Shown one piece after another: positions 868 to 45,442 of a stretch of DNA of 46,317 bases. Under the pieces are notes generated by a model that saw only the letters and a list, made by a program, of their open reading frames with translations, was not told the origin of the DNA and searched no databases. This DNA comes from a virus: IMG/VR virus record IMGVR_UViG_3300031673_014237, positions 1 through 46,317 of that record; one strand, 5' to 3'. The translations under genes and the position numbers were made by a program. Within the stretch, counting starts at the first letter, position 1, and each line of letters starts with the position of its first letter.

Positions 868-888
868 ACAGCTTGAATCAGTATAATA
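868..888 (+). promoter_or_regulatory. Putative promoter, -10 TATAAT with shared upstream motif
   Basis: ACAGCTT, a few bases, then TCAGTATAATA precedes the NeuB-like gene. The same pair of motifs occurs at 8188-8206 upstream of another plus-strand gene. TATAAT fits a bacterial -10 box, but there is no good -35 at 17 bp. This could be an extended -10 promoter. The evidence is only two copies. Confidence 0.3.
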
Positions 889-908
889 TAAGAAGGAGAA
901 TAAAAAAA

Positions 909-1817: not shown

Positions 1818-1847
1818 CTTTACTTTTTGTCTTTTAGGGGAAGAAAG

Positions 1848-2435: not shown

Positions 2436-2454
2436 TAATATAAGGAGTTACTAA

Positions 2455-2730: not shown

Positions 2731-3224
2731 AAAGGTATCAAAAGGAACTTAAAAAAATGAAAAGTAAAATCTTCTTTCTCCTCGCCTTTATCTTGCTATT
2801 CATTCCTTCCCTGGTCAATTCAAACTCAGACGATGTTGCGATAAGACTAGCTAACCTTGAGAAACGAATAACGGAACTGGAAACCTACATTGAAATGGGC
2901 AGCATTAATTACACTCACCAAAAGGTTACTGTTACCGCTTATCATCCGAATTCAAAGGGCATTAACTCAGATCGAAACCCTGCCAGGACAGCAACGATGA
3001 AAAGGCCGATTGCTGGTTACACCCTGGCAATTTCTAATGAATTGTTTCGTTTGGGCTGGCTGGGAAAGAAAATCTATATTGATGGCTGGGGAGTTGGAAG
3101 GGCCACAGACAGAATGAGCACATCAGTAAAGGGCAAGCATATTGACATCTGTTTTCCAAGTTTAAAGACTGCCAGAACATTTGGAATAAAACGAGGGATA
3201 TTGGCCGTTTTATTATTGCAATGA
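2727..3224 (+). CDS. Secreted or membrane-anchored 3D-domain (RlpA/MltA-like barrel) protein
   Basis: 165 residues from ATG 2727 (ATGA overlap); an in-frame ATG at 2757 also has an upstream AGGAA and would start directly at the signal peptide. Residues 11-33 form a hydrophobic signal or anchor. A short heptad-like stretch (VAIRLANLEKRITELETYIE) follows. The 3D domain then runs from TVTAYHP to the end, with the three aspartates D119 (YIDGWG), D128 (ATDRM) and D140 (HIDICF). 3D domains belong to the double-psi barrel fold of peptidoglycan lytic transglycosylases. A cell-wall role during infection is plausible but not shown. The gene lies outside the late lysis cassette. Confidence 0.7.
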   Translation: MKRYQKELKKMKSKIFFLLAFILLFIPSLVNSNSDDVAIRLANLEKRITELETYIEMGSINYTHQKVTVTAYHPNSKGINSDRNPARTATMKRPIAGYTLAISNELFRLGWLGKKIYIDGWGVGRATDRMSTSVKGKHIDICFPSLKTARTFGIKRGILAVLLLQ

Positions 3225-3236
3225 GGGAAAGAAACC

Positions 3237-4307
3237 ATGAAACATTCAATTGTCTATAAAAACAAAGACAGATATGCCAGTTTTCCGTTGCTGGAGAAAC
3301 TTGATGACAGAATCTTAATTGGGTTTTTCACTGCCCCCATTCCTGACCACATGGGCTTGTTTTGGTGGAATGTACTTGAATCATTTGACCAAGGAGAAAC
3401 GTGGCAGGATTTCAATCGGTGGACAGACTCGAAGCCCCGTTCTGTAATACATCATTACAATTGGCCTGCCAATTCTCCACGGGAGAAATCAGACAGATTT
3501 GTATTTGAAGCCGGGGAATCAATGATTGCAACCGGCTCATATGGATTCAAGATAAACCGCAAAGAGAAGATAATCACAAAAAGCACAAATCTCTTCTATC
3601 GCCATTACCCAAAAGACTGGGAAAAGCTCAACAATCAAAAAACCTATGAAATCCCAGGTATTGATATCATTTTAACCTTTCCAAGGCTCCTCCAGATTGA
3701 CAATTTAATCTTGATTCCTGCCTATGCAATTTTGAAAGGAAGTGGGAAAAGCCGTTGCCTTGTATGGAGATCAACTGACTATGGGAGAACTTTCCATCTA
3801 TGGAATATGTTCCCTGATGAAATTGATGGAAACGAAATGGCTTTTATTGCCACAACCAATGGCATCCTTGCTCATATTCGCAGTGACAAGCACCCTTATC
3901 TGCTGGAAAGTTGGTCAGAAAATGCTGGGATGACATGGTCATATCCCACAAAGGTTTCCAGTGCCAGGAGCAATATAATCGGTGGCCCTCCACATCTATT
4001 GAAATTGAATGATGGCAGGATAATATGCAGCTATGGCTATCGTTTTCAACCAATGGGCATTCGGGCAATTGTGTCTGAAGATGAAGGGAGAATGTGGTCT
4101 GCTCCGACAATTCTGCGAGAAGACGGCGGATATTCAAGCAGCCTGCACAAAAGAAAATGGAAAAGCAAATTTAAAATGCCTCATGCCGGGAATGACATCG
4201 GGTATCCTGTGAGTATTCAATGTGATGATGAATCAATTTTGACGGCATATTACATAACCGGAAAAGATCGAATAACGGGGATCGAAGTGACGAAATGGAA
4301 GATTTGA
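3237..4307 (+). CDS. BNR/Asp-box sialidase-superfamily protein
   Basis: 356 residues. Four Asp-boxes (S.D.G.TW type) are visible: SFDQGETW at 49-56, STDYGRTF at 179-186, SENAGMTW at 227-234 and SEDEGRMW at 280-287. This fits a six-bladed beta-propeller sialidase fold. Sialidases remove terminal sialic or related nonulosonic acids. No signal peptide is seen, so it may act in the cell or on the virion. Its place between genes for nonulosonate synthesis suggests related substrates, but Asp-boxes also occur in non-sialidases and I did not identify the full arginine triad. Confidence 0.7.
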   Translation: MKHSIVYKNKDRYASFPLLEKLDDRILIGFFTAPIPDHMGLFWWNVLESFDQGETWQDFNRWTDSKPRSVIHHYNWPANSPREKSDRFVFEAGESMIATGSYGFKINRKEKIITKSTNLFYRHYPKDWEKLNNQKTYEIPGIDIILTFPRLLQIDNLILIPAYAILKGSGKSRCLVWRSTDYGRTFHLWNMFPDEIDGNEMAFIATTNGILAHIRSDKHPYLLESWSENAGMTWSYPTKVSSARSNIIGGPPHLLKLNDGRIICSYGYRFQPMGIRAIVSEDEGRMWSAPTILREDGGYSSSLHKRKWKSKFKMPHAGNDIGYPVSIQCDDESILTAYYITGKDRITGIEVTKWKI

Positions 4308-4308
4308 A

Positions 4309-4566
4309 ATGAGACAATTTAAGTCGGTAACAGAAGAAGAAGTTGAAAAAGTATGGGGCAATGCCAATTTCGGTTCCGATCTAAATGAGCGCAAAATGGA
4401 TGTCGTCAAAGGGGCACTGCTCAAATGGGCAAGTGAATACAGCACCGGACATACGGCATTTTGTATATTGGTTGAACTTGGTTTAATAACGGAAAAGAAA
4501 CACCTTACAGCCCGTGGCAGGCGGCAATTATGGGAATTTTTTGGGAATAACTGTGCAAAAGTTTAA
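4309..4566 (+). CDS. Hypothetical protein, 85 aa
   Basis: No family recognised. It starts one base after the sialidase stop region, so it is in the same operon. The sequence (MRQFKSVTEEEVEKVWGNANFG ...) has a helical middle and a basic ARGRRQLWEFF tail. It resembles small phage proteins that often accompany metabolic genes. Confidence 0.55.
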   Translation: MRQFKSVTEEEVEKVWGNANFGSDLNERKMDVVKGALLKWASEYSTGHTAFCILVELGLITEKKHLTARGRRQLWEFFGNNCAKV

Positions 4567-4582
4567 ATTACAAGGAGACAAA

Positions 4583-5536
4583 ATGAACTGGAATGAAAAG
4601 GAAGTTTTAATCACTGGTGGCACTGGCAGCCTCGGGAAAGCCCTAACAAAACAACTACTCAATGAGTACCATCCAAAAGGCATCAGAATATTCAGTAGAG
4701 ATGAATTGAAGCAATGGGAAATGAAAAGTGCTCTTGCCCAGGAATACAAAACCCTCCCCGTGTCTTTTCTTGTTGGCGATATCCGAGATCGGAAACGGGT
4801 TGAATTGGCAACTAAAGGCGTGCATATTATTATTCATGCTGCTGCTCTTAAACAAGTGCCCTCATGTGAAGATAACCCCTTAGAAGCCATCAACACAAAC
4901 ATCATCGGCGCCCAAAACGTGCTTTATGCTGCCCTTGAAAACAAGGTTGAAAAGGTTATGGCGATCAATACAGACAAAGCCGTAATGCCGATAAATTTAT
5001 ACGGAGCAACGAAACTTTGTGCTGAGAAGTTGTTCATCCAAGGCAATACCTACAGCGGAAATCGAATCCCTCACTTTTCAGTTTGTCGTTACGGAAATGT
5101 AATTGGAAGCAGGGGCAGCGTTATCCCTTTGTTCCAAAAACAATATGCCGAGACAGGAAAGGTGACCATCACCGACAAAAATATGACCCGTTTCTGGATT
5201 ACATTGGTCCAGGCCTCCAACTTCATTTTACAAGCAATTGAAGATATGGAAGGAGGGGAGATTTTCATTCCCAAAATGTCCAGTGCTGCTGTGGCAACAA
5301 TAGCACATGCAATCTGTCCTGATGCAGAAATTGAAATCGTGGGGATTCGGCCTGGAGAGAAATTGCATGAGACATTAATCACAAAAGAGGAAAGTGTTCA
5401 CACAACAATGAATATAGGTAAAAATAGATTTGAAATCAGAGCAATAGGAAAATTCAACCAATTTGAATACCGTAGTGACAACAATCCCCATTGGTTGGCA
5501 TTGGAGCAAATAAAGGAAATGATAAAGGAGGCATAA
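4583..5536 (+). CDS. pseB: PseB-like UDP-GlcNAc 4,6-dehydratase (SDR family)
   Basis: 317 residues from ATG 4583, preceded by AAGGAGAC. An upstream in-frame GTG lies inside the previous gene and is unlikely. The NAD(P) motif ITGGTGSLG is at residues 10-18. The catalytic residues of PseB-type enzymes are in place: T130-D131-K132 (INTDKAV) and Y140...K144 (LYGATK). The blocks CRYGNVIGSRGSV and GIRPGEKLHE are also typical. PseB performs the first step of pseudaminic acid synthesis (4,6-dehydration and 5-epimerisation of UDP-GlcNAc); related CapD/FlaA1 enzymes differ in stereochemistry. The acetyltransferase gene follows with TAATG overlap. Confidence 0.88.
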   Translation: MNWNEKEVLITGGTGSLGKALTKQLLNEYHPKGIRIFSRDELKQWEMKSALAQEYKTLPVSFLVGDIRDRKRVELATKGVHIIIHAAALKQVPSCEDNPLEAINTNIIGAQNVLYAALENKVEKVMAINTDKAVMPINLYGATKLCAEKLFIQGNTYSGNRIPHFSVCRYGNVIGSRGSVIPLFQKQYAETGKVTITDKNMTRFWITLVQASNFILQAIEDMEGGEIFIPKMSSAAVATIAHAICPDAEIEIVGIRPGEKLHETLITKEESVHTTMNIGKNRFEIRAIGKFNQFEYRSDNNPHWLALEQIKEMIKEA

Positions 5537-6090
5537 TGACCCCTATAGCAAAAACCAAACGCCTTGAATTAGTCAGCCTTATAGAATTGGTGGAAGAGGA
5601 ATACCCTACCAATTACTTGTCTTGGCTAAATGATCCAGAAGTAACCAAATACAATCATTGGGGCCTCTTCCCATACACTTCTTTGACGAGAGACCAATAT
5701 ATACAAGAACTCAAAAAGAGCAATAAAGCAATCGTTTGGGCCTGCCTTGTTGAGGGAATTCACATTGGAAACTTCACCCTACAAAATATCAACTATATAT
5801 ACCGCAGTGCAGAGTTTGCAGTGGTCATGGGCGAAAAAGAATATTGGAATAAGGGATATTGCACTGAAGCAGCCCGCCTGCTTTTTGCCCACGCCTTTGA
5901 TAAACTAAACCTTCACCGGGTGTGGACTGGTACGGCAGCAACAAACGCCGGAATGAGAAAAGTTGCTGAGAAATTGGGCATGACAAATGAGGGGGTTTTC
6001 ATTGACGCTATGTTTCTCAATGGAGAGTATGTTAATATTTATGAATTTGGGATCACCGAAAAAGAATGGAGACAACATGAAAACAAATGA
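5536..6090 (+). CDS. GNAT-family N-acetyltransferase (RimJ/RimL type, PseH-like role likely)
   Basis: 184 residues from ATG 5536, which overlaps the pseB stop, with AAAGGAGG at 5525-5531. It has the RimJ/RimL layout: RLELVSL at the N-terminus, WLNDPEVTKYNHWG, GNFTLQNI, the acetyl-CoA region EYWNKGYCTEAARLL, and NLHRVWTGTAATNAGMRKVAEKLGM near the end. Coupling to pseB suggests it acetylates a 4-amino sugar nucleotide as PseH does, giving a UDP-2,4-diacetamido sugar. The exact substrate is inferred. Confidence 0.85.
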   Translation: MTPIAKTKRLELVSLIELVEEEYPTNYLSWLNDPEVTKYNHWGLFPYTSLTRDQYIQELKKSNKAIVWACLVEGIHIGNFTLQNINYIYRSAEFAVVMGEKEYWNKGYCTEAARLLFAHAFDKLNLHRVWTGTAATNAGMRKVAEKLGMTNEGVFIDAMFLNGEYVNIYEFGITEKEWRQHENK

Positions 6091-6256
6091 CATCTTCAAT
6101 CAAGTCAAAAAGATTCGTACCCAGAACAATGAAAACTGGATGGAACTTTTGAGGCTAGCTTTTAGAATAGATCCATACAATGCCAAGAAAATTATGCAAA
6201 AGATTGTTGAGTGTGATGAAAAGATCAAAGACCTTTGTAAGGAGTTGATAGAATGA
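6077..6256 (+). CDS. Hypothetical small protein, 59 aa
   Basis: ATG 6077 lies inside the end of the acetyltransferase gene and has GGAGAC just upstream, so translation is coupled. The protein is charged and helical (NENWMELLRLAFRIDP ... KIKDLCKELIE). No family recognised. Confidence 0.55.
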   Translation: MKTNDIFNQVKKIRTQNNENWMELLRLAFRIDPYNAKKIMQKIVECDEKIKDLCKELIE

Positions 6257-6438
6257 AAACCAAAACAGCAAGAAGGTTTCTGAGTCGTAATGCCTATAAA
6301 GCAGCACACATAAAAACATTCACCCCTAACAAAAAGAACCACTTCACAAGACGATGGCAAGAATGCCTTAAAACAGTTGCAAAAGAAATGAGGATCAAAA
6401 ATGAGCAAAAAGAAAAAGCAGAAACGATCGAAACTTAA
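6253..6438 (+). CDS. Hypothetical small basic protein, 61 aa
   Basis: Overlaps the previous stop (ATGA) with AAGGAG upstream. It is basic and rich in Lys, Arg and His (KTARRFLSRNAYKAAH). It overlaps the start of the next gene by 38 bases in another frame, which is typical of compact phage operons. No family recognised. Confidence 0.5.
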   Translation: MKTKTARRFLSRNAYKAAHIKTFTPNKKNHFTRRWQECLKTVAKEMRIKNEQKEKAETIET

Positions 6439-7795
6439 AAAGAATCTGAATGCTCTGAAAACAATTAACCCCGGTATGTTCAGTTGGTTAAAAAAGCAAC
6501 CAGAGATTGATTGGATACAGGAGATTAAAAGCGAAAACGGAGACAGAAATCTGCTTATTCAAAGTGGCAGCAATCTGATCAATGCCTATCTAATGGACAA
6601 TCCAATGAAAGAGGCCGAGAGCGTAGCAGACCAAATGAATCTATACAAGGAAAATATCAGCATTATCATTGGGGCTGGACTAGGCTATCTTTGCAAAGCC
6701 GTTTTAGAGAAAATGGAAAAGAAACACAGAGTTATTGTAATCGAACCTATTGGAAGCATGATCAAATTAGCCCTGTCTAATTTTGACTTCTCAGAGGATC
6801 TCCGAAAAGGAAATCTAATATTCCTGCCGGGCAAGATTGAATTAGTCTATACCCTGCATTTTCTTAGTGGTCAATTTGTTATTTCCGATTGGTTACTAAC
6901 AACCGAAAAGTATACTCGCCATCGCCCCCATGAATATAATGAAATCGTCTCAGCTGCCCAGGAGACTATTAACCAGATAATGTGTAATACTGGAACTGTT
7001 GCAGGGGCCGCTGGAGGGATAATCGCTGACAATGACATTGCCTGTATGCCCTACGTCCTGCGACACCGGGGAGTAAATGAATTAAAAGGACTGTATAAGG
7101 ATAAACCTGCTATTTGTGTAAGCACCGGTCCCTCACTGGCAAAGAATATACATCATTTAATTGACCTTAAAGACAGGGCAATTATTATTTGTGTCGGGCA
7201 GGCAATCCGGCCATTGCTAGGTTATGGAATTAAACCTGATTTTGCAACAACTGTCGATTTTGGCGAAGTCAATATTGGACACTTTAAGGGGTTACTTGAT
7301 TGTAATATTCCCCTTGTAACAATAAACAGAACCTACGCCCTTTTAATAAAAGCATGGCAAGGACCCAAATTTATTGCTGCCACACCGGTCCCCGGATATG
7401 AGAGTATGGCAACTGGAATACTGACAGACAAAGGGTTTATCGAGGCCGGTGGCAGTGTAGCCCATTTGTCATTCGGTCTCGCACAATTGCTTGGCTGCAA
7501 CCCTATTGCTTTTTTGGGACAAGATTTGGCCTTGACGGATGGATCACATATTCCACTGGCAGATGCTTCAGGGGAGGTAAAAATAAATGCAGCAGGTGGG
7601 ATCGATTGGGTTGTGAAAGACCCCCGATGCAGTTTAACAGGCGAAGGGAAATCATACAGCATGGGCATGGTGCATTATGTTGAGGGATTTTATGGAGGAA
7701 AAACTTTAACAAACATGGGCCTAATGTCATTTTTGACAGTTTTTGAGGGAATGATATCTCGTCACCTTGAAGGAAATAAAGGGAAATTAACTTGA
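6401..7795 (+). CDS. Maf/DUF115-family glycosyltransferase (flagellin nonulosonate transferase-like)
   Basis: 464 residues after GAGGATCAAAA. The Lys-rich N-terminus is followed by IIIGAGLGYL (89-97) and the DUF115 core PAICVSTGPSLAKN (236-249), ALL-beta/alpha segments with GYGIKPDFATTVDF, GGSVAHLSFGLAQLLG and FLGQDLALTDGSHI. DUF115 (MAF_flag10) proteins of bacteria attach pseudaminic or legionaminic acid to flagellin serines and threonines. It closes the sugar cassette, so the likely acceptor is a host surface or flagellar protein, or a phage protein. CMP-activation (PseF/NeuA) and PseG genes are not in the window and would have to lie to the left or come from the host. Confidence 0.82.
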   Translation: MSKKKKQKRSKLKKNLNALKTINPGMFSWLKKQPEIDWIQEIKSENGDRNLLIQSGSNLINAYLMDNPMKEAESVADQMNLYKENISIIIGAGLGYLCKAVLEKMEKKHRVIVIEPIGSMIKLALSNFDFSEDLRKGNLIFLPGKIELVYTLHFLSGQFVISDWLLTTEKYTRHRPHEYNEIVSAAQETINQIMCNTGTVAGAAGGIIADNDIACMPYVLRHRGVNELKGLYKDKPAICVSTGPSLAKNIHHLIDLKDRAIIICVGQAIRPLLGYGIKPDFATTVDFGEVNIGHFKGLLDCNIPLVTINRTYALLIKAWQGPKFIAATPVPGYESMATGILTDKGFIEAGGSVAHLSFGLAQLLGCNPIAFLGQDLALTDGSHIPLADASGEVKINAAGGIDWVVKDPRCSLTGEGKSYSMGMVHYVEGFYGGKTLTNMGLMSFLTVFEGMISRHLEGNKGKLT

Positions 7796-30400: not shown

Positions 30401-30892
30401 TTATTCAACAACCTTTCCACCAGTACCAACAATTGACCATATCCCATCCGTAAAGCACTTTATGTGCACCCAGGGATCGCTTGCGGCTGACGTATGCATT
30501 TCCCATCCGCTTCCCGCTCCTCCAGTAGAAAGAAGGAGAATACAGGCAGCGCCAGAAATTGAAAAATCTAATTCTGCCGTCGCATTGGTGAATGTCCCGG
30601 TTGGATCTCCTCTCAGCATTATCATTAAATCGGCCCCAACAGAACAAGACCCGAGCCGACACGACGCACTCCATGCAGCCGCAGCCCCCGCGGAAAATAT
30701 GAGAGTGCCATAACTGATAGGCAACTCCACTACAGAAAAACATTCTGCGGTAACACTTGGGTTTATCACAATGACAGGGCTTCTTATTGCCCCTCCTGAT
30801 TCCACTCTAGCCATTCCGCCGGAGCCGAAAACAAAAGCGTCTCCCCCTCGTTCTTGATATACTTTTGTTTGATAAGTTTCATCTTGGGCCAT
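30401..30892 (-). CDS. Putative capsid decoration protein, paralog 1 (163 aa)
   Basis: Starts MAQDETYQTKVYQERGGDAF, then GSGGMARVESGG, almost the same as the next gene upstream. The rest is beta-rich and ends SDPWVHIKCFTDGIWSIVGT. The position just after the capsid gene and beta-rich content suggest a decoration or head-fibre protein. No named family. Confidence 0.65.
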   Translation of the reverse strand: MAQDETYQTKVYQERGGDAFVFGSGGMARVESGGAIRSPVIVINPSVTAECFSVVELPISYGTLIFSAGAAAAWSASCRLGSCSVGADLMIMLRGDPTGTFTNATAELDFSISGAACILLLSTGGAGSGWEMHTSAASDPWVHIKCFTDGIWSIVGTGGKVVE

Positions 30893-30910: not shown

Positions 30911-31411
30911 TTATTCAGTTATACTTCCATTTTGGGCAACAATTGACCAGACATCATCTGCGAAGCACTTCAGTTGAACCCAAGGATCACTTGCGCCTGA
31001 CGTATGCATTTCAAAGCTGAGTATGGCTCTGCCTTCAGACCCAAGAAGAGTGCACCCTGAAAGAGATACTTCGATAATAGTGCTATAGTTAGTAAATGTG
31101 CCAGTAATATCTCCTCTTAGCAATAGCGTCACATCAGCTCCAACAGAGACAGAAGTAAGCCAAAAAGAACCGTTGATCAAATTGGACTCAGCAGAAAATA
31201 TAACAATTCCCCTGCTAAAAGGGAGATTTACTTCAGAAAGAACACCTACGCCAGCCCCAGCATCAGATACAGAATTAAGACCAAGAATCTTTCGACAAGG
31301 AATAAAAGCCCCTCCCGATTCTATTCTCCCCATTCCACCAGACCCAAAAATAAGGGCATTCCCTCCCTGCTCTTGATATACAGCAGTTTGATAAGTTTCA
31401 TCTTGAGCCAT
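30911..31411 (-). CDS. Putative capsid decoration protein, paralog 2 (166 aa)
   Basis: Shares the N-terminal block MAQDETYQTAVYQEQGGNAL and GSGGMGRIESGG and the C-terminal SDPWVQLKCFADDVWSIVAQ with the adjacent gene; the middles have diverged. This is a tandem duplication. The variable middle could present different surfaces on the capsid. Confidence 0.65.
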   Translation of the reverse strand: MAQDETYQTAVYQEQGGNALIFGSGGMGRIESGGAFIPCRKILGLNSVSDAGAGVGVLSEVNLPFSRGIVIFSAESNLINGSFWLTSVSVGADVTLLLRGDITGTFTNYSTIIEVSLSGCTLLGSEGRAILSFEMHTSGASDPWVQLKCFADDVWSIVAQNGSITE

Positions 31412-32153: not shown

Positions 32154-33590
32154 TTACGCTACAACGCCCAATTTAATTGCCTGAAAATTGATCACGTCCC
32201 CACCAACCCTTTTCCTTGTGTAAAACTCCACATAAGGTTTTTGGGTATAGGGATCTCGCTGTACAGTGATCCCAAGGCGATCAACGATCATATATGACTC
32301 TCGCCAATCAGCGATTGCAACAGACAAGGCATTCGCGGCCTGAATCGGCATTGTTGTGCTCATCCGCAAGGGCAGTCCTAACAGGGTGCTGTATTCATCC
32401 TCTTTCAGACCAGGGCTCCACAGATACCGACCTGCCCCGTCCTTCAGTTGCATAAAATCTGCAACCGTCAGCCGGTTAACCAACCAGGTGCCTCTTTGCA
32501 GGTATTGCTCGATCAACCTAAACTTCAGATCAATAAGGCCATCGGCAGTAATCGGGTTTCCAATATTCTGACGTTCAATCTTGGCCCACTCATCAACTCC
32601 AGCAGTGGCATAATTGCCGTAGGTCAAGAAGCCCCTCGGTTTCCCAACTCCGTCTCCACTGACAAAGGCCGCAGACTCAAGCCGCAAGAAGCGGTTAGAC
32701 TGCTTATCGGCCAGCCAGCTCTCAATATTGATCGCTGAATCTTCCAACAGGGTTTGTGTGGCCCTCGGTTTGGCATACAGGACATGCACCGGGATTCTCT
32801 TTTTGAAGATCTTCGGTGTCCCTGTCTCGGCTCCGGACTCGGTCTCACCTTCCCATCCCCCACCGGCCTCATCATAATCCACCAACCATTCAATGGCATT
32901 TGTGGAAATGGTCTCCACTGATGCAAGGGAACGCAAAGGATCAAGCTCAAAAAGCCGTTTCACAATCTGATTGCTCATGGTCGGGGTTACAGTATAGCCC
33001 CCGTCAGGGTCAACAGACACAGACAGGGCTTTAAGCTCTTCAGGTGGGACAGGCATCTTATCTCGTCTCCGAATAAAACCATTGAATGCCTTACAATACT
33101 CTTTATAAAGCTCAACGTCGGGTTTAAAATCCTCAGCCTTTGTCCAATGCACCCCTATCGCATTCGGCTCATCCGCTGCTGTCCCAGCAGTGCCTATAGC
33201 TACTGCCATGTTTGCAAAAAAGAAATCCTTGGCATCTTTCAGATCCTCCGGCAATTCTCCGGGTAAAGATTCCTTGAGCTGTCGTTTCATAGCAGTCTCA
33301 AGGTCATTCATCCGGTCGTTCAAGACTTTCTTTTCTTCTTCAATATTAATCGAAACGATCTTCTGGTCCAAGGCTTCCTGCCGGGTTGTAATGTCTTCTC
33401 CCAGCTTCGTGATCTGCGCCTGGACAAGGGCATCAAACTTTCCTTCACTGGCCTCCACCAATGACTTCAAGGAATTATAGCCCTTTTGCAGATCCTCATA
33501 ATTCTTTTTTACATTATCCCCTAATTTTTTAATCTCATCTTGAACCGCTTTTACAACTTCAGGCTCAAGTGTTTTTGCTGCCTCAGTCAT
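32154..33590 (-). CDS. Major capsid protein, HK97 family
   Basis: 478 residues. The first about 110 residues form a coiled coil, the scaffold-like delta domain usually removed by the protease. The core has ALSVSVDPDGGYTVTPTMSN, LRSLASVETISTNAIEWLVD, RRIPVHVLYAKP-type beta pieces, ESAAFVSGDGVGKPRGFLTY and GLPLRMSTTMP, all standard for Phage_capsid (HK97). It lies just downstream of the protease gene. Confidence 0.95.
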   Translation of the reverse strand: MTEAAKTLEPEVVKAVQDEIKKLGDNVKKNYEDLQKGYNSLKSLVEASEGKFDALVQAQITKLGEDITTRQEALDQKIVSINIEEEKKVLNDRMNDLETAMKRQLKESLPGELPEDLKDAKDFFFANMAVAIGTAGTAADEPNAIGVHWTKAEDFKPDVELYKEYCKAFNGFIRRRDKMPVPPEELKALSVSVDPDGGYTVTPTMSNQIVKRLFELDPLRSLASVETISTNAIEWLVDYDEAGGGWEGETESGAETGTPKIFKKRIPVHVLYAKPRATQTLLEDSAINIESWLADKQSNRFLRLESAAFVSGDGVGKPRGFLTYGNYATAGVDEWAKIERQNIGNPITADGLIDLKFRLIEQYLQRGTWLVNRLTVADFMQLKDGAGRYLWSPGLKEDEYSTLLGLPLRMSTTMPIQAANALSVAIADWRESYMIVDRLGITVQRDPYTQKPYVEFYTRKRVGGDVINFQAIKLGVVA

Positions 33591-33606: not shown

Positions 33607-34728
33607 TCAATTTAATAAATTCAATTCAGATAGACTCTCCAATATTCCGTCCATCCCAATTTCCATCACATAGTCAGGAAACATTTCAAACAACTCCTGA
33701 TCACTGTAATCCTTAAATTCCGGCACAGGTTTTTTGAACTCCTTATAATGCTTTGCCAAGTGGTTATAACACCCCTTGCGGTCTGCATCAGGAATCAACG
33801 TGCCTGCCTGAAGCAAGCGGGCCATCCCGGCAGCAACCCCACGCCAGACAGTCGTGTAACCGTCTTGTTTGTGGTGGGGCAATTTGTATGCACTCTTTTT
33901 ATCTGCATTAGCTTTATCGTACCAAGTGCACATGATTTTCAGATCATCAACATCAGCGGCCTTAACCTGTGCCCCTGCATCCCATGCCTCCCCTTCATCG
34001 GCCAGGGAATAGGATTTAAAGGGAACAACGGACTTGTAGAGTATCTCAAATTCCTCGTTTGTTTTTGTCAAACTGGCAAGTATCTCAGCCAGCAAACCAG
34101 CTTCCAACGGACCCATTTCCCCAGCCTCCCGCAAGGAGGGTCTGCATAACTTGACCAAATACTTTGCAATTGAATTTGAAAGTCCTGCCTCCCGCAGGAG
34201 ATCTTCCAGCTCACGTGGTGTCTTGGTCTCTTCTATTGATTTCACCGTCAGCACATTCGCCCCTAATTTAGCAGGGAACGTGACGAGGCTAATTTCCCAA
34301 AGTTCAACTTTCTTTAAATCTCGGATTTTCTTTTTCTCATCAACATCATATTCAATGGCATCATAGCCAATAGATTGACCCAGTTTAAAAGTCCCAATTT
34401 CAGCAGCCAATTTCATAATCTCATGAACGTCTTTGCCCAGAGTTGTATTGATCGCAAGGCGGCCATCTGAAACAAGCCCTTTGTTATCTTCCTGCAAGGA
34501 AGACCAAATACCGGGGATTTTGCTCACATCATGTTGCCAAAGCATCGCAACCCCAGACTCATTCCTGCCCCCTTTAGCAATAGTATCCAGGAAGGCTCCT
34601 TTGCTGACCAGGTCTCCATGAGCGTCCGGCTTGCGATTGAAAAGAGAAGCATAGCCCCGGAAAGAACCATCCTCTTTTATATCTGCGGCTTTAACTTCAA
34701 ATGGAACATCTATATATAATGGTGACAT
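33607..34728 (-). CDS. HK97 prohead protease with C-terminal extension
   Basis: 373 residues; HK97 proteases are usually about 200. Family blocks: GSFRGYASLFNRKPDAHGDL, catalytic His66 in MLWQHD and Ser147 in WEISLVTFPAK. After about residue 200 comes an added region with IMCTWYDKANADKKSAYKLP, then HHKQDGYTTVWRGVAAGM and GCYNHLAKHYKEFKK, which I have seen in other prohead proteases but cannot name. The 40-bp promoter-like element is just upstream. Confidence 0.9.
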   Translation of the reverse strand: MSPLYIDVPFEVKAADIKEDGSFRGYASLFNRKPDAHGDLVSKGAFLDTIAKGGRNESGVAMLWQHDVSKIPGIWSSLQEDNKGLVSDGRLAINTTLGKDVHEIMKLAAEIGTFKLGQSIGYDAIEYDVDEKKKIRDLKKVELWEISLVTFPAKLGANVLTVKSIEETKTPRELEDLLREAGLSNSIAKYLVKLCRPSLREAGEMGPLEAGLLAEILASLTKTNEEFEILYKSVVPFKSYSLADEGEAWDAGAQVKAADVDDLKIMCTWYDKANADKKSAYKLPHHKQDGYTTVWRGVAAGMARLLQAGTLIPDADRKGCYNHLAKHYKEFKKPVPEFKDYSDQELFEMFPDYVMEIGMDGILESLSELNLLN

Positions 34729-34815: not shown

Positions 34816-35061
34816 TCAAACCTCTATCACATCAGAAGCCCTCAGGCGACTCCCAGAATAAGCAAACTTCAAAACCTCCAAAAACCGGATTCCATCATCT
34901 GGATAAATAAACCCACTTTTAGTCCTGATTCCCTCCCTTAACTCAGCAATCAATTTTCCTGGCAAGTCTCTGAAAACTACTTTCCCCTCAATAAGCAATG
35001 CCTTTCCGTCCAACCCTTGCTTGCCACTATCCACCGTTCTATAAAATTCAACCTCTTTCAT
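34816..35061 (-). CDS. Hypothetical protein, 81 aa, coupled to the kinase-like head gene
   Basis: ATG overlaps the stop of the head/kinase gene (ATGA). The product (MKEVEFYRTVDSGKQGLDGK ... YPDDGIRFLEVLKFAYSGSR) has no recognised family. Tight coupling suggests a partner of the kinase-like domain or a head protein. No signal or membrane segment. Confidence 0.55.
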   Translation of the reverse strand: MKEVEFYRTVDSGKQGLDGKALLIEGKVVFRDLPGKLIAELREGIRTKSGFIYPDDGIRFLEVLKFAYSGSRLRASDVIEV

Positions 35062-37814
35062 TTTCCAGCCCTTTCAACCAAATCTTCAACCCCAACATTA
35101 CCATAATCTCTCAACAAGAAACTAACCTGATCTGTCTCAACCGCTTTCTTCATTATCTTTATCCTTTCTTTCAATGCTGATATTTCTGATTTTGTTAAAT
35201 TATACTTTTCAACTAATTTATTCACCTTCAACCTTTTTAGCCCTGCCAATGTTTTCTTGCGCAAATCATCAGAAACATTCACGTCATCAAATGCAACAGA
35301 AATAAATCTTGCTTCAGATAGCCCAGTTTTCTTCATCCTTTTTGATATAACAAGCACTGGATATTTTCGAGGATCTGGAAAAGAATATCCATGATCAATC
35401 AAAACCGGAACTCCTCTCTTTTTCATTCTCAAATAATTCTCAATATGCCTATCTGTATTCCCAATAACATAATCAAAAATTCCAATTTTGTATCTCTCTT
35501 CATAAGTCAATTGCCTGCCATTCCATTTAGATTCCTCTAAGGCATCATCTATCCACTTTTGAGCACTCCCTTTCCCTTTTCCAAAATCCCGCATAACTGT
35601 AGGAGGAGTCATTCCAAATCCAAGATTATCATCAATTTCATAAGCCAACGCCTCCCTCTCTGCCAATGGAAAATTCTTATTTGAAACAGTATATCTTTGA
35701 CTCCAATCTTCTCCATCCACTGGCTTGAAAATAGCTTTAAACCTTTTTCCTTCATGTTCAACCCCAACAACACTGCTAACATTCACTCCGCCGTTCAAAG
35801 GAGTTGAACTATGCAAATCTCCCTCTAACAACGGAGTTGCTGCCTCTGGAGGACTTTCAGGCTCATACGGTTTAATCTTCTCCATCTGTTTAACTGTGTG
35901 ATACAAAAGAACGCAACGGCAATTATGGGTCACAAATCCATTAGCGATATAACTTTCATCATCTTCAACAGCAAAATTATATATATTAATTCTTCTTTTG
36001 AGAACTCGACTTGATACGGACCTAACCTTCATACCAACTTGTGCAAAAGTTCCAGTATGATTCAAACTAACTAAGTCAAAAAACTCCCATTTCGGCGGGG
36101 TCGGTTTATAATCAACATGAGCAATTTTATGATCTGGATATTCACTTAATATTTCCAGGTCCCTTTTCCTATCTCGCTCTTTATCCTCATGCCAAGGAAA
36201 ACCATCAACTTCAATAAACAGTTTTTCTTTTTCAACATAAAAATCAATTCTTCTTCTCCCAATCTGAAATTGAGCAACAAATTCTCTATTGTTTTTATCA
36301 AGAAAATCTGCCATCGCTTGTTCTATTTTTGAGCCCCCAAAATTAGTCTTTCCTAATGCGGGAAATGCCGTTTGTTTTAGCATATTCAAAATAGAACCGT
36401 ATTTCTTCTCAATCGCTTTTTTTCGAGCCTTTTGAAATTCTTCTGTCTTCCCAAGAACACCAAAAGACCCCCCTACTCCCCATTTGGCATAATGAGCCTT
36501 TCTCGCTTTCTTTGTTATTTCATTTCCGTTTCTTATTCCATTTGCATATTCCCTTTTCAATTGAGCCGACGTTTTTTTACTCATATTTTTTCTATGTTCC
36601 GGATCTGCCCATTGTTTCAATGCAACTTGTCTTCTTTCTTCTGAAAATTCAGAATTATTTGTCCTTTCTTCCCCAAGATTTTTGCCAGAACAATATTTAT
36701 CACAGAAATTATTATAATACGGGATAGGTTTCCCACACCATTGACAATATGAGGCCATAAATCGAACGCTATCGTCAAGTTTGATATATTTAGCCTCTTT
36801 CCATCTAAAAAATCTTCCGCCCCTTGAAACCAAAAAGGGATGTTCAGGAGTAACTACAATAAATTTTCCCTGCCCATCAAGAGTAATCCTGACAACCTCC
36901 CCTCCATACAAGGTTTTGTTAAGACGCAAAACTTTTTTAAACCTATTTTTATGAGTCAAAACTAGATCACCAGGCTTGATATACCTAACCTGCTTCCAAC
37001 CTTCAGAAGTGTAAATTGGAGTCCCATAATTGGTTAAACACCGGATAATATTTCCCGCACTCCCCTTCGGATCTCCTGGATAACTCAAAGGCTGCCCCGT
37101 GCCCACAAAATCCTTATCCTGTGGCACCCGTTCCCCATCTGCTCCATTTGGAAACTTTCCATAATGATTCCAGATATTATTCTTGTCGGGCCTACGTGTG
37201 CGCATGTCACGTGCGCTCACCCACTCCCGTTCCATCTCAATCCGGGTGCTCTTAACAGCAGAATCAATACTTTTCATTGCTGCTGTGTGGGTCTCTGTCA
37301 AGGCAATTGTCTTTGCTCGATAAGAGCTTGTGATCTTCCCTGTGCTACGAATATTCTTTGCAATATCAACATGGGATATCCCCTCTTGCATACCTTTATG
37401 AATGACCCCGGCAATAACGTTTTTTGTGGTCTTGTTGATCTTGGTTATCTTGCTAGCTGCTTGAGTTTTGGACCACGCGCCAATCTCTTTCCAGAAATCT
37501 TCTTTTGGGGTCTTGATCTCTGAGGGCTGAATAAACTTTTTGTTGGCAAATATCCCAAATGCCTTGTTGCTGAAGACAGTTGCAACCCTTCTGTAATGGT
37601 TCTGCAAGGTCTCGACCATCTTAGGACGAGCATCATCAACAACAAAATCAATATCATCAAACCTGCCAACCTTGGCCAATCGAGAGGCTTTGAAGCATTG
37701 AGAATTAAGCAGCCTTGTCCATTCTTTGGTCTGTGAATATTCCAGGCTTGCCATCATCCTCTCAATCTCAGCTTGCCAGAGGAGGCGGGCTCTTCTGTCT
37801 GTAATGTTTATCAT
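35058..37814 (-). CDS. Mu gpF/SPP1 gp7-like head protein with intein and C-terminal HipA/PI4K-like kinase domain
   Basis: 918 residues. Residues 1-258 are a head morphogenesis (Mu gpF-like) domain (SYRAKTIALTETHTAAMKSI, RTRRPDKNNIWNHY, PGDPKGSAGNIIR). Residues 259-631 are an intein. The host domain resumes at CRCVLLYH (632), so the spliced protein has 545 residues. From about 675 to 815 there is a kinase-like fold: Lys697 (AIFKPVDG), EREALAYEID (719-728) with LGFGMTPPTV, catalytic loop NTDRHIENYL (D788, N793) and metal-binding LIDHGYSF (D807). This resembles HipA and bacterial PI3/4-kinase-like proteins. Substrate unknown. gpF-like proteins lie inside heads, so the kinase may be injected with the DNA. 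Confidence 0.85.
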   Translation of the reverse strand: MINITDRRARLLWQAEIERMMASLEYSQTKEWTRLLNSQCFKASRLAKVGRFDDIDFVVDDARPKMVETLQNHYRRVATVFSNKAFGIFANKKFIQPSEIKTPKEDFWKEIGAWSKTQAASKITKINKTTKNVIAGVIHKGMQEGISHVDIAKNIRSTGKITSSYRAKTIALTETHTAAMKSIDSAVKSTRIEMEREWVSARDMRTRRPDKNNIWNHYGKFPNGADGERVPQDKDFVGTGQPLSYPGDPKGSAGNIIRCLTNYGTPIYTSEGWKQVRYIKPGDLVLTHKNRFKKVLRLNKTLYGGEVVRITLDGQGKFIVVTPEHPFLVSRGGRFFRWKEAKYIKLDDSVRFMASYCQWCGKPIPYYNNFCDKYCSGKNLGEERTNNSEFSEERRQVALKQWADPEHRKNMSKKTSAQLKREYANGIRNGNEITKKARKAHYAKWGVGGSFGVLGKTEEFQKARKKAIEKKYGSILNMLKQTAFPALGKTNFGGSKIEQAMADFLDKNNREFVAQFQIGRRRIDFYVEKEKLFIEVDGFPWHEDKERDRKRDLEILSEYPDHKIAHVDYKPTPPKWEFFDLVSLNHTGTFAQVGMKVRSVSSRVLKRRINIYNFAVEDDESYIANGFVTHNCRCVLLYHTVKQMEKIKPYEPESPPEAATPLLEGDLHSSTPLNGGVNVSSVVGVEHEGKRFKAIFKPVDGEDWSQRYTVSNKNFPLAEREALAYEIDDNLGFGMTPPTVMRDFGKGKGSAQKWIDDALEESKWNGRQLTYEERYKIGIFDYVIGNTDRHIENYLRMKKRGVPVLIDHGYSFPDPRKYPVLVISKRMKKTGLSEARFISVAFDDVNVSDDLRKKTLAGLKRLKVNKLVEKYNLTKSEISALKERIKIMKKAVETDQVSFLLRDYGNVGVEDLVERAGK
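35922..37040 (-). mobile_element. Intein (373 aa) with EDxHD/DUF559-like PD-(D/E)XK endonuclease
   Basis: Splice start is Cys259 (CLTNYGTPIYT) and splice end is FVTHN followed by Cys632. Block B TPEH is at 322-325; block F/G is YNFAVEDDESYIANGFVTHN. Inside are a zinc-finger-like C357/C360/C371/C375 and, from 494 to 565, a nuclease core: E498 (GGSKIEQAMADFL), D524 (RRRIDFYV), E535 (LFIEVDGFPWH) and ERDRKRDLEIL. This is the Vsr/DUF559-type core reported in some inteins rather than LAGLIDADG. Insertion is directly before the conserved Cys of the gpF CRC motif. All splice residues look intact. Confidence 0.9.
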
Positions 37815-37916: not shown

Positions 37917-39389
37917 TTATTCATCCTCGCTTTTACCTGGCCCTGGTCTCTCTGCCCTTCTCATCTTCCCCCCACACTTTGGACAGGAAATCTCGGAACA
38001 ATGCTTATCTGAAGTCATCTTGTAACCGCACTTAATACACGAACAATTGTACTTTGCCTTTTCTTCATCGTCTTCATAGTCCAATTCTAACATTTCTTCA
38101 ATTTCCTCTTCCGTATATCCCTCAGCAAGCAGTTTTTTTCTTGTCTCTTCCTCAGTTTCCTCTTCCTCCGCTGGTTCCATTCCAAGAGGGATTTTGCTCG
38201 CATCAATCAAAATCACGTCCCCTTCTTTTCCCCAATTATCCAATCCTGCCATTTCTCTCTTTTCGTTTATAGATGCAAAAGTTGCTTCCTCAGCACGCTT
38301 CCACAACATTTCTTTCTTTTCCGCAAACGCAGGAACATCATCCAGAATATAACTGATAAAGCGATTTGAATCGCCTGGAAATAACCAATTATTCAACTCT
38401 CCTCGAAGATAATTCAGCCACCAAACGACTGTATTTTCCCAGAAAAATAGTCTTGCTTCCCTCCTGTTATTGAAGGTGGAGGACTCAATCCCAAGCAATT
38501 CAGGGGGAACTCCGTAAGCCATGGCAATTTTACGCATCAGGCGAACATCCCCCTCACTGAAATCCATATCGGTCGGAGACCAGCCATAAGGTGCAACCCC
38601 AGTGCCCCGCTCCCCTGTGATAATTAAATCCTTCCCAGCAAAAGACGGCCCACTGCGCTGTTCAAGATGCCGCTCCAACTCATCAAATGCCTGTGACCCT
38701 TGAGCCCCGACCAAAGTGAAAACCAAGCCGGGACGCCCCTGATTATCAAGCAACGCCTTATTCCATTCTGTGGATGCATTGCTAGTGTCAATCTCCCTAG
38801 CCGCTGACTCTGTCGGGGCCGCGCCCCACCAATCATCAAGAGGATGGAATGCTTTCAGTTGAAGAATGTCTGCCTGATGGGTTACCGGATCAATATCCCA
38901 TGCCGTCACCCTCCCCCCAACCGTGTAAACATACTGTTCCAACCTGCCGTTTGAAGTCTTGAACTTAAAACGGTCTGGCCGATGAGAGTACATCTCCCTC
39001 ATCTGCCCTTTGTTTGGGCCTGTATCTAATTTGATTCTTTCCAAGAATGCATTCCCGCTCATAACCAGATAAGCAAGTGTCTTCAACGTAACAAACGCAA
39101 AAGATTCGTCTGGGTTAGGTCTTTTTAAAATCATATTGAAAGGATCATCTTGCGCTTCCTCCCGGCTGCCATCCTCATTCTTGTCAAAAATCTTCCACGG
39201 CACTGAGGCTCCAGACTTGGCAACCTCATCAATGGCCCGGAAAGCCGTGACATTCTTCAGGTAGGTCTCACGGGCAAAGTTATCATACCCTCTTTGTGGC
39301 CAGACGACTTTAGTTGAGCCAGGGCTGGCAACTATGCCAACCGTGCGGCTCTCTTTCCGTCTGAATATTCTGTTCAGCCATTCTTTCAT
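37917..39389 (-). CDS. HK97-family portal protein with C-terminal zinc ribbon
   Basis: 490 residues. Portal blocks: TYLKNVTAFRAIDEVAKSGA, then LAYLVMSGNAFLERI, EWNKALLDNQGRPGLVFTL and AYGVPPELLGIESSTFNNRR. After a Glu-rich tail the last 45 residues carry six cysteines (CSCIKCGYKM, HCSEISCPKCGG), a zinc ribbon not present in HK97 itself. It could bind DNA or a partner such as terminase. The start overlaps the lipoprotein stop. Confidence 0.93.
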   Translation of the reverse strand: MKEWLNRIFRRKESRTVGIVASPGSTKVVWPQRGYDNFARETYLKNVTAFRAIDEVAKSGASVPWKIFDKNEDGSREEAQDDPFNMILKRPNPDESFAFVTLKTLAYLVMSGNAFLERIKLDTGPNKGQMREMYSHRPDRFKFKTSNGRLEQYVYTVGGRVTAWDIDPVTHQADILQLKAFHPLDDWWGAAPTESAAREIDTSNASTEWNKALLDNQGRPGLVFTLVGAQGSQAFDELERHLEQRSGPSFAGKDLIITGERGTGVAPYGWSPTDMDFSEGDVRLMRKIAMAYGVPPELLGIESSTFNNRREARLFFWENTVVWWLNYLRGELNNWLFPGDSNRFISYILDDVPAFAEKKEMLWKRAEEATFASINEKREMAGLDNWGKEGDVILIDASKIPLGMEPAEEEETEEETRKKLLAEGYTEEEIEEMLELDYEDDEEKAKYNCSCIKCGYKMTSDKHCSEISCPKCGGKMRRAERPGPGKSEDE

Positions 39390-42519: not shown

Positions 42520-42915
42520 TTACCCCGTCTCCTGTGTCACGCTCCACCCAGAGATCGTCAATCCAAACGAATTGGTTGCTGACATCGCCATACCAATGCT
42601 GAGGGTATCTCCCGCCCAAAACATCCGAGGTGGGTCGGCCTGATAGACTACATCCTTAATTCCAAGCATCGCCTGAGAAATCAACACCTCATTATATGCA
42701 CTATCTATGTGATTTGAAACGATGACATAGAAACTGACAATAGAGACATGAACAGTGGAAAGATGGATATGAATTTGATCAAGGATAAAAGCACAGGACG
42801 GATCAAACTGTTCGTCCAAGGTATCGTCCCAGGCCCCTGCCGGATTACCATCAGAAGCAAAGAAACGAAAATAGCGATGTTTTGAAACCGGAAGATATTT
42901 TGCTGTTAACGCCAT
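42520..42915 (-). CDS. Conserved virion-associated protein, paralog B (131 aa)
   Basis: Same length as 45047-45442 and about 70% identical by eye without gaps (93 of 131 positions). Shared blocks: HLSTVHVSIVSF, HIDSAYNE and DTLSI. Beta-rich. Each copy lies directly before a large beta-rich protein, so it may be its adaptor or chaperone. Family not known. Confidence 0.7.
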   Translation of the reverse strand: MALTAKYLPVSKHRYFRFFASDGNPAGAWDDTLDEQFDPSCAFILDQIHIHLSTVHVSIVSFYVIVSNHIDSAYNEVLISQAMLGIKDVVYQADPPRMFWAGDTLSIGMAMSATNSFGLTISGWSVTQETG

Positions 42916-43212: not shown

Positions 43213-45047
43213 AGGTTCGTTCCCCTCAAATCCAACTCTGTCTTTGTCAATACTCGGTCATATAGCTGAAGAAAGGTCAACCAAGTGGGGCCAGCAATTT
43301 GATGATAAATAATATCTATCCCCGTTCTGCCAGCCAGTCCGGCACCAAAAGCGGGCTCCGGGCCAGCCCACTCAAACCCAGAACCATCATCAATTCCAAG
43401 CTTCTCTCGGATAGATCCGGCTGCATTTTTAAATCCCCACTTGTAAGCAGGCTTATACAAACCATCCAGAACATGAATAAAAACAACTTGGCTTCCTTTC
43501 TCAGATAGAAACTCACTTTTTGTCGGAGAAAAGGGAGAATGCCAAAAGCCAGAAATTGCACTATTATTGACAGATACAATATTGCCAGCAAAGTTAAAAT
43601 CGTCACATGCATAACCAAACCTGGCAAGGGCAACCAAAGTCCCCTTATCTGTTGCGGAAAACATCCCAGTAGGCAAGGTATATTCAAGTATCGAATGCTC
43701 TGCCGCCCGATAATTGCCATATTCCTTTAAACTGAAATTATCAAAATCACCGCTGGAATTGACAGAGTTTGATTTTAGTTCCAACCCACCGCTTGTCGGA
43801 TACAGGGTAACAAAGTAAAAGACGTTTGTGCCATTCTCCGTGACCATGCCAAGTTTGTTTGCCGTGGCATAATCCGTCAAATACCAACTGCCAACAATAT
43901 TCGCAACATCAAACTGAATCCGATAAACCTTACACCGAGACATAGGAGCGCTTGCACCAGCCACATGACAGGATTGCAACCTCGCATCTGCTGTAATACT
44001 CAAATCTCCAGTTTCATCGTAGGCAAACAGCGGGTCAAAAATGTCATTTGACCAATTAGATGGAGCACTGAAGTCTCTATCTGCCTGAACAATTATTAAC
44101 TCAGCCCCTAATGCAATCCCATCATTATCAATATAACTGGTAGGAGCCAAAAGAGGAGCTCCATGAATGCCTGATGCAACTGTTCCCCATCCTTTTTCTA
44201 ATTGGGGACAGTCGAAAACGGCAGAACCAATCGGGGTTCCGTCCGTAAATGTAGAACCGTCTGTGCTAATTGCAGCAGCCAAATTAAAAACAACCTGATT
44301 ATTTCCACCTGTGTCTTTGTGAGCAAGCCAAACACGCCAAAAATTACCCGCATCCCTAATGCCGAAAGCATCAGGAACAAAACCAACCCGGCCCGTAACC
44401 ACTCCCGTGTTAGTATTAACAATTATCATTACATGCTTAAAAACACCTCCCCAGAATTCAATGGCTACACAGGGAAATGATGTTGCCCCAACCGTCTTTT
44501 TGATATAAACAGAACCAATATAATTTTCATTCGACGGATCGATATCAACAACTTGACAACGTCCTTCATTGTTGGCTGCACTATCATCCTCAAGCGTCCA
44601 TGCCTTATTTGCTGCCCCGTCAACCCCCATTTCGTTTTGTGTTTCCGTGCAAGTCCCCGCCCCTATCTCTGCCCAGGGAGCAGTTGTAAAATTCCTAGAT
44701 TGCAAAAGAAGGTTAATACTGTTAGGCTCCAACAGCAACCCTGCCGGAGGTGCAAAACTATAATCAATCACAGGGGCATCGGCCCCGGCAACCTTCAAAA
44801 GACCATCCTCGTCAAGGTAAGTCCTCGTCAAACCCGCATAGGTCAACGCCCCCTGATCCAACCCCTTACAGCCAAACCAGGGGACAATCTGGCGAAAGAA
44901 TGGAAATAGTGCCTTGAGGCCAGGCGGCTTGCGAAAGGCATTCAGGGTCACGGGGTTTGCCTGCGTCTCTGCATCTATATCCATATAGGCTCCCCGGTTC
45001 CCAAATTGAGGCTCGGCATTAACTGAAAGATTATGCATTGTGTGCAT
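43209..45047 (-). CDS. Large beta-rich virion protein with CBM-like and C-terminal jelly-roll parts, 612 aa
   Basis: After a 100-residue start, NLLLQSRNFTTAPWAEIGAG, NKAWTLEDDS, then YIGSVYIKKTVGA is a pattern seen in phage receptor-binding or carbohydrate-binding-module-like domains. The C-terminal about 150 residues (LEYTLPTGMF ... LTFLQLYDRVLTKTELDLRG) look like a LamG/concanavalin jelly roll. Likely exposed on the virion. It overlaps the upstream paralog A by TAATG. Confidence 0.6.
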   Translation of the reverse strand: MHTMHNLSVNAEPQFGNRGAYMDIDAETQANPVTLNAFRKPPGLKALFPFFRQIVPWFGCKGLDQGALTYAGLTRTYLDEDGLLKVAGADAPVIDYSFAPPAGLLLEPNSINLLLQSRNFTTAPWAEIGAGTCTETQNEMGVDGAANKAWTLEDDSAANNEGRCQVVDIDPSNENYIGSVYIKKTVGATSFPCVAIEFWGGVFKHVMIIVNTNTGVVTGRVGFVPDAFGIRDAGNFWRVWLAHKDTGGNNQVVFNLAAAISTDGSTFTDGTPIGSAVFDCPQLEKGWGTVASGIHGAPLLAPTSYIDNDGIALGAELIIVQADRDFSAPSNWSNDIFDPLFAYDETGDLSITADARLQSCHVAGASAPMSRCKVYRIQFDVANIVGSWYLTDYATANKLGMVTENGTNVFYFVTLYPTSGGLELKSNSVNSSGDFDNFSLKEYGNYRAAEHSILEYTLPTGMFSATDKGTLVALARFGYACDDFNFAGNIVSVNNSAISGFWHSPFSPTKSEFLSEKGSQVVFIHVLDGLYKPAYKWGFKNAAGSIREKLGIDDGSGFEWAGPEPAFGAGLAGRTGIDIIYHQIAGPTWLTFLQLYDRVLTKTELDLRGTNL

Positions 45048-45442
45048 TACCCCACTTCCTGTGTTATTGCCCAGCCGGAAATCTCAATGCCATAAACATT
45101 TGTCGCCGACATTGGCATTGCAATTGACAGAGTATCGCCAGGATGAAAAAAACGAGGAGGATGTGCTTGGTAAAGCAGATCTCGAACCCCCAGCATAGCC
45201 TGAGAAATTATGATCTCATTATATGCGCTGTCAATATGATGAGAAAGAGTAACGACAAAACTCACAATAGAAACGTGTACTGTTGATAGATGCAAACGGA
45301 TCTTATCCAATATGAAAGCATATGAAGGGGCAAACTGTTCATCCATTGTGTCATCCCAGGCGGCAATAGGGTTTCCATCAGTAGCGAAAAATGAGAAATA
45401 TCTATGTCTTGAGACTGGCAAATATTTCGATTCGAAGGTCAC
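45047..45442 (-). CDS. Conserved virion-associated protein, paralog A (131 aa)
   Basis: Paralog of 42520-42915 (equal length, about 70% identity). Shared N-terminus KYLPVSRHRYFSFFATDGNP. It is the first gene after the 40-bp promoter-like element and the sigma factor. Function unknown; structural role inferred from its position before the 612-residue protein. Confidence 0.7.
   Translation of the reverse strand: MTFESKYLPVSRHRYFSFFATDGNPIAAWDDTMDEQFAPSYAFILDKIRLHLSTVHVSIVSFVVTLSHHIDSAYNEIIISQAMLGVRDLLYQAHPPRFFHPGDTLSIAMPMSATNVYGIEISGWAITQEVG

Follow-up and report, generated by a model that had tools for sequence, protein, structure and literature searches.

The 46,317-base IMG/VR virus record IMGVR_UViG_3300031673_014237 (the whole stretch analysed, hereafter the window) raises the question of what a kinase domain does at the end of a viral head protein, and how the small gene overlapping its stop codon belongs to it. 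The open reading frame (ORF) concerned lies on the minus strand at 35058-37814 and encodes 918 amino acids (aa), exactly the coordinates of an original prediction that had described a head protein fused to a HipA/PI4-kinase-like domain. Our analysis directly established the domain layout, the predicted kinase fold, the conserved catalytic residues, an empty intein site in relatives, a partner gene family, and the exchange of kinase and partner as one cassette. We consider it probable that the locus encodes a polymorphic toxin of the MuF family whose warhead is a kinase, together with a HipS-like immunity protein.

The N-terminal part was correctly recognised as a head protein. Residues 10-259 matched phrog_2468 (head morphogenesis) with 5.3e-35 in the PHROGs profile search, and the domain is of the MuF type. 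The MuF profile PF04233 reached 28.0 bits in the window protein, just under its cut-off of 29.6, because an intein divides the MuF domain; in the intein-free relative L012 the score was 32.7 bits. The MuF head domain makes up the N-extein (residues 1-258, 37041-37814, minus strand). Directly upstream lies the gene of a 490-aa portal protein (37917-39389, minus strand; PF04860 3.1e-49, phrog_12 7.9e-46), which is the usual position for MuF genes, and a temperate lifestyle is typical of the published MuF toxins.

At the other end of the protein, residues 655-918 (35061-35852, minus strand) form a PI3/PI4-type kinase effector domain. PF00454 (PI3_PI4_kinase) scored 36.7 bits in the 918-aa protein, so that the match, lying above the curated cut-off of 27.1, is not attributed to chance. 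All kinase residues named in the original prediction (K697, E721, D788, R789, H790, N793, D807, H808, and G809) are present. In an alignment of 20 related kinases, D781, Y782, G785, N786, D788, R789, N793, and D807 were invariant, K697, P698, E721, and G809 were kept in at least 90% of the rows, and H790 was kept in 16 rows and replaced in 4. The model of the domain (predicted local distance difference test, pLDDT, 77.1; predicted template modelling score, pTM, 0.79) showed a kinase fold, as the prediction had proposed to check, with phosphatidylinositol 4-kinase type II (PI4K-II) as best match (Foldseek E 1.8e-8; VIA-align Z 21.3, root mean square deviation 3.1, 240 residues). Next in VIA-align were Fam20 (Z 14.6), H. 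pylori CtkA (13.8), and the bacterial kinase complex 7vkb (11.8), while the Hip kinases followed with HipT of Legionella (8ezs, 11.6), HipT of E. coli (11.2), and HipA (10.5). Thus, the kinase assignment stood in both fold and motif conservation, either of which could have refuted it, with PI4K-II and not HipA as the closest fold. In the window kinase, the HipA profile PF20613 scored 14.0 bits (cut-off 27) and PF07804 gave no match at E <= 1, and the resemblance to HipA/HipT appears to be one of fold only. A profile of the 20 kinases searched against PDB sequences found PI4K-II at 5.1e-12; designed helical proteins, down to 2.7e-10, matched on the C-terminal helices and were put down to composition, not kinship. 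PADLOC matches to the kinases were confined to small segments around the catalytic motif, and we did not count them as a sign of a defence system.

The small gene suspected of being a partner (34816-35061, minus strand, 81 aa) overlaps the stop of the kinase gene by 4 bases (ATGA) and is probably co-translated with it. For a leave-one-out analysis, the ORF after the kinase was chosen by eye, a profile hidden Markov model was built from the other 15 partners, and all ORFs of the locus of at least 50 aa were searched. The partner ORF ranked first at 16/16 kinase loci, among 70-121 ORFs each, with E from 8e-25 to 0.059; the weakest were L036 (0.059) and L046 (0.003), and the window, L010, and L012 are closely related, as are L044 and L046, so that these do not count as independent loci. 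Of the 20 loci prepared for the analysis, four (L048, L052, L053, L057) offered no candidate partner and were left out. As a control, the full partner profile found nothing at E < 0.01 at 22 MuF loci without a kinase, some of them near-identical. The role of partner suggested for this gene was supported. Searching with the partner only, we matched two of 345 genomes from the class of Actinomadura (at most 16 candidates per genome were scored), namely the known one and a new one, L100, in which the frame just upstream of the partner carries the kinase motifs. Among 379 genomes of the Paceibacter phylum, the known one was found together with one genome showing two weak partial matches (E 2.5e-4 and 5.1e-4).

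The partner, modelled with very high confidence (pLDDT 95.7), may be HipS-like. The top VIA-align rows were the small subunit of 7vkb, which we take to be HipS (Z 4.3, 68 of 81 residues), and the Legionella HipS in 8ezr (Z 4.2, 67 residues), both weak matches in the range under 8, where Z may stand for a common arrangement only. The HipA N-subdomain followed with Z 3.3 and 3.0, values level with those of unrelated folds (2.9). With hhalign, the partner scored 18.7 against 11 HipA N-domains, compared with a maximum of 15.7 in 200 column shuffles and 11.05 for a reversed control; these 11 were selected from 14 PF13657 domains, L110, L113, and L114 being dropped as they had no LPE/LPD motif. This comparison superseded a smaller one with only five HipA-family sequences (E 0.014). 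No Pfam match was found for the window member at E <= 1 or for seven others at E <= 10, PDB sequences yielded no match of note, and among viral models Foldseek had no hit to the partner at E <= 0.001.

Kinase and partner occupy a slot that is filled differently in other genomes. The MuF part and the intein, used as scan queries, revealed 21 distinct contigs of this MuF type, several near-identical to each other. Four carried the kinase at the C-terminus (a twin of the window included), six a HExxH metallopeptidase-like domain, and one a DNA topoisomerase IB; a domain without assigned family was found in five, another such domain in two, and in three there was none in open frame. Other domains in the slot come with other small genes. 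The metallopeptidase label refers to the HExxH motif with a sub-cut-off match in L014 and to the motif alone in L017-L021. Two assignments made by eye were given up: an ADP-ribosyltransferase in L013, L015, L016, L088, and L089, for which no family was found in the members scanned and no relative in the PDB, and a JAB-like domain in L086/L090, which profile scans did not confirm. The topoisomerase case (L092:5001-6809) combines a MuF head protein with PF01028 (3.4e-28) and PF21338.

The borders of the cassette became visible by comparison with L013. Its DNA is homologous to that of the window between 37815 and 35853, a stretch that includes the intein and the 23 codons after it. Homology is then missing up to 34745, where it sets in again 17 bases ahead of the prohead protease gene, which shows that effector and partner were replaced as one piece. 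The point at which the homology ends, where the L073 and L074 proteins also end approximately, closes a C-extein linker of residues 632-654 (CRCVLLYHTVK...KPYEP; 35853-35921, minus strand) that is constant across effectors. In all three pairwise comparisons among the window, L010, and L012, the portal, MuF, protease, and capsid proteins shared 82-91% identity. In the pairs including the window, identity was 63-65% for the kinase and 63-66% for the partner, while L010 and L012 shared 88% and 83%, respectively. To judge from these values, the cassette of kinase and partner has moved even between kinase carriers. The fusion of head protein and kinase proposed in the original prediction holds for both domains; the prediction had missed that the kinase and its partner form an exchangeable cassette and that a 373-residue intein lies between the two domains.

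This intein spans residues 259-631 (35922-37040, minus strand) and was detected by PF14890 (3.2e-9) and TIGR01443 (1.4e-6), both above their cut-offs. All splicing blocks are present, i.e., C259, T322-H325 (TxxH), H630-N631, and the +1 nucleophile C632. At exactly this position, directly before the conserved MuF CRC motif, L010 and L012 read NIIR-CRC uninterrupted; in the MuF part, they share 91% and 85% identity, respectively, with the window. Since the splicing motifs are intact and relatives with an empty site exist, the 918-aa precursor is expected to excise a 373-residue homing intein, which would restore NIIR-CRC and give a predicted mature protein of 545 aa; kinase residue numbers refer to the precursor. 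Within the intein, a CxxC...CxxxC treble-clef-like element (residues 357-375, 36690-36746, minus strand; PF09889 0.027, below cut-off) and a DUF559 / PD-(D/E)XK-type nuclease core (residues 498-557, RRIDFYV...LFIEVDG, 36144-36323, minus strand) were identified, the latter with 21.5 bits for PF04480 (cut-off 20.6) and 3.7e-5, below cut-off, for PF18741. Against L013, the ratio of nonsynonymous to synonymous substitution rates (dN/dS) was about 0.10 for the intein and about 0.13 for its nuclease part (residues 376-598), approximate values as dS was high.

An intein scan led to seven loci, all with the insert immediately ahead of the MuF CRC motif. Its contexts comprised the kinase, the effector without assigned family of L013, and proteins without an effector (L073-L077), where L073 and L074 are the same protein and L075-L077 belong to a more distant MuF type. 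One of the seven is the window twin, a 15.7-kb contig with 99.99% identity in a comparison covering 9.8 kb. Two Gordonia phages, Nordenberg and Barsten, also possess inteins in MuF-like minor capsid proteins at the same place before the CRC motif; these inteins are 275 aa long, and the proteins gave neither a DUF559 match at E <= 1 nor a kinase match. In Nordenberg, the end of the MuF gene with the intein is overlapped by a small gene (L007:5235-5453) that matched the ribosome modulation factor RMF (PF04957, 3.3e-11).

The search for the same fusion elsewhere succeeded, e.g., in L010, L012, and L042. The kinase alone gave no tblastn match at E <= 0.01 in 50,697 phage records; at E <= 10, there were 19 records. 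Part of these were chance matches (RNA ligase rows, Vibrio phi50-12), and the list pointed the way to HCTV-6, Mx1, and others. Search peptides from the first kinase alignment (A3) were poor and yielded nothing new in viral or genome contigs; the relatives in contigs were recovered with the core alignments A5 and A7. In L037, the kinase is fused to a portal-like protein (PF05136 below cut-off) and in L042 to a different MuF protein (MuF over cut-off), while L038 (2058-10106) encodes a protein of 2682 aa that combines a MuF-like match below cut-off with two kinase and three ADP-ribosyltransferase stretches. In haloarchaeal viruses (L044, L046, HCTV-6 gp16), the kinase occurs in proteins of the head-tail gene region; the N-terminal part of gp16 is read as a neck protein from gene order and sequence only. 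In the culturable HCTV-6, gp16 and gp17 make up a related cassette. The best tree required two origins for the MuF-kinase fusions (the window group and L042); several branches are weak, and a single origin is also compatible. A W/F-D-E-x-K-HPR...GG[KR]F-like motif precedes the kinase in L035:4455-5705, L040:4179-5453, and L042:2025-5396.

Outside viruses, the kinase forms the C-terminus of actinobacterial proteins (L047, 526 aa; L048, 804 aa; L051, >1839 aa) and is also found in smaller proteins, in Nocardia and in a Paceibacter (Patescibacteria) genome (L049). C-terminal kinase and partner occur together in the actinobacterial L047, L050, L051, and L100, away from recognised virion genes. L051 also has an ADPrib_exo_Tox domain over cut-off. 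These carriers may be secreted toxins, and the kinase a toxin domain shared with other polymorphic toxin families, but no secretion domain was identified in them.

All comparisons with published systems refer to parts of the papers cited. With MuF polymorphic toxins (PMC5576092; Apk2, PMC12226406) the window shares the MuF N-terminus, the gene position directly after the portal, the variable C-terminal domain, and a small downstream ORF (<150 aa; here 81 aa). MuF toxins with downstream immunity genes have been described (PMC5576092, PMC3482391, PMC5512222). The toxin classes named in the passages of PMC5576092 and PMC12226406 are nucleases, metallopeptidases, ADP-ribosyltransferases, and RelA-like/ppApp synthetases, whereas the window carries a PI4K-type kinase. 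A lantibiotic-synthetase-type kinase is described as a toxin (PMC3482391), a truncated protein-kinase group and zeta-toxin-type kinases are also mentioned (PMC5512222), and the passages of PMC5576092, PMC3482391, and PMC5512222 considered contain no PI4K/Hip-type MuF toxin. The MuF gene of the window also harbors an intein, whereas none is mentioned for MuF toxins in the parts of PMC5576092 and PMC12226406 considered. A literature search largely without subscription papers revealed no kinase/MuF or intein/MuF combination by title or abstract opening. Judging from this literature, a PI4K/Hip-type kinase as a MuF toxin would be new, while MuF toxins with immunity genes are known.

HipS acts as an antitoxin blocking the kinase HipT (PMC10627512), and for the kinases HipJ and HipI, putative HipS-like antitoxins are encoded downstream (PMC8262856), in the same order as the partner of the window. 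HipBST and HipJS (PMC10627512, PMC8262856, PMC9325769) have a kinase fold related to that of the window, with a HipS antitoxin of about 100 aa. Unlike in these modules, the window kinase is closer to PI4K-II than to HipT and is fused to a virion protein, its partner is HipS-like by weak fold and profile evidence only, and the neighbours of the pair are portal and prohead protease, not an adjacent hipB-like helix-turn-helix gene. PI4K-II itself shares fold and catalytic motifs with the window kinase, which differs in its identity of 19%, its phage-borne nature, and its toxin-like context.

Several results weigh against a kinase toxin with HipS-like immunity. At E < 0.01, the full partner profile matched none of 12 further kinase loci (L048, L052, L053, and L057 included), so that 12 of the 28 kinase loci examined had no recognised partner. 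Apart from the low Z for HipS mentioned above, Foldseek with the partner model gave nothing at E <= 0.001, the probability given by hhalign itself for the match to the HipA N-domain was 5%, and the window record contained no PF13657 (Couple_hipA) match. It is also unusual for a plain immunity protein that its domain occurs in fusions with virion proteins; one such domain stands at the N-terminus of a MuF-like protein (L037:5151-6386, PF04233 below cut-off) beside the portal-like/kinase fusion, another at the N-terminus of a prohead protease (L041:720-3020, PF14550 over cut-off). Among the actinobacterial carriers, L051 alone has another toxin-type domain over Pfam cut-off. The gene at 30911-31411 is also discordant (87% identity between window and L010, 47% between window and L012), showing that the cassette is not the only mosaic region of these genomes. 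Apparent purifying selection was counted in favour of the toxin; dN/dS of the window pairs is rough because dS was 0.9-1.9, and the partner pair L010-L012 had a dN/dS of 0.47.

Instead of a toxin, the kinase could be a non-toxic early effector that is injected and reprogrammes host metabolism or translation for the phage, as has been argued for T4 Alt, with the partner as a virion chaperone or loading factor. It would fit that the kinase is fused not only to MuF but also to a portal-like protein and to haloarchaeal head-tail-region proteins, and that the partner domain occurs in virion proteins of L037 and L041; parts of PMC5512222 argue for virion-borne effectors. We nevertheless regard this as unlikely, since the same pair ends actinobacterial proteins away from recognised virion genes and since the slot of the kinase is also filled by other domains, accompanied by other small genes. 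The actinobacterial proteins with a similar cassette also speak against a structural kinase that would phosphorylate phage head proteins during assembly under regulation by the partner; the location of the gene between portal and prohead protease suits such a role, but only 4 of the 21 contigs with this head module carry the kinase, which makes it quite improbable.

A different question is whether the Hint domain is a PT-HINT-type autoprotease releasing the kinase and not a splicing intein. HINT peptidases are common just before toxin domains in polymorphic toxins (PMC3482391, in the parts considered), and the intein region has a weak match to Pfam Hint_2. Against this stand the complete C-terminal splicing block ending in HN/C with the embedded nuclease, the alleles in which precisely this position is uninterrupted, and the occurrence of the insert in the effector-less proteins L073-L077, so that we give autoproteolysis hardly any chance.

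For the toxin with HipS-like immunity, the following course can be proposed. The 918-aa precursor would splice itself into a 545-aa MuF head protein tipped with a PI4K-II/HipT-type kinase, a few copies of which would be incorporated into the prohead next to the portal. According to passages of PMC12226406, heads presumably contain 2-3 copies of MuF proteins, which would bind the viral DNA. The kinase would then enter the next cell with the DNA and phosphorylate a host target, for which tRNA synthetases are candidates by analogy with HipA/HipT. In the producing cell, the partner would bind the kinase and keep it off, a role of inhibitor suggested by co-occurrence, co-exchange, and fold. If true, this candidate toxin/antidote pair would join Hip-type kinase toxin-antitoxin pairs with toxins carried in phage heads, unlinked in the literature examined. 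It would also point to a mobile intein lodged where a delivery domain meets its interchangeable warheads, and to a partner family, without a Pfam model, that spans tailed phages, haloarchaeal viruses, a Paceibacter (Patescibacteria) genome, and actinobacteria.

A doubtful extension is a safety catch, in which the HipS-like partner is made with the prohead, restrains the kinase, and is lost or destroyed at capsid maturation, leaving the injected kinase armed. Hip pairs would thereby gain a virion-delivered branch, and the intein at the junction of carrier and warhead would promote warhead exchange. The fusion of the partner domain to a prohead protease in L041 and to a MuF-like protein in L037 suggests that the partner may travel with the prohead; in the window, the partner gene lies just before the protease gene.

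That prohead serine protease gene (33607-34728, PF04586 1.2e-26) is followed by the gene for the major capsid protein (32154-33590, PF05065 2.7e-73), both on the minus strand. At the other end of the window, the plus strand at 46-7795 encodes a piece of a DegT aminotransferase, NeuB, a BNR-repeat protein, a Polysacc_synt_2 dehydratase, a GNAT acetyltransferase, and an MptE-like protein with a Maf match below cut-off. By its gene content, this sugar-modification cluster looks like phage-carried nonulosonic-acid synthesis. Finally, similar gene pairs, adjacent or nearby and duplication-like, were observed at 30401-30892 / 30911-31411 and at 42520-42915 / 45047-45442.

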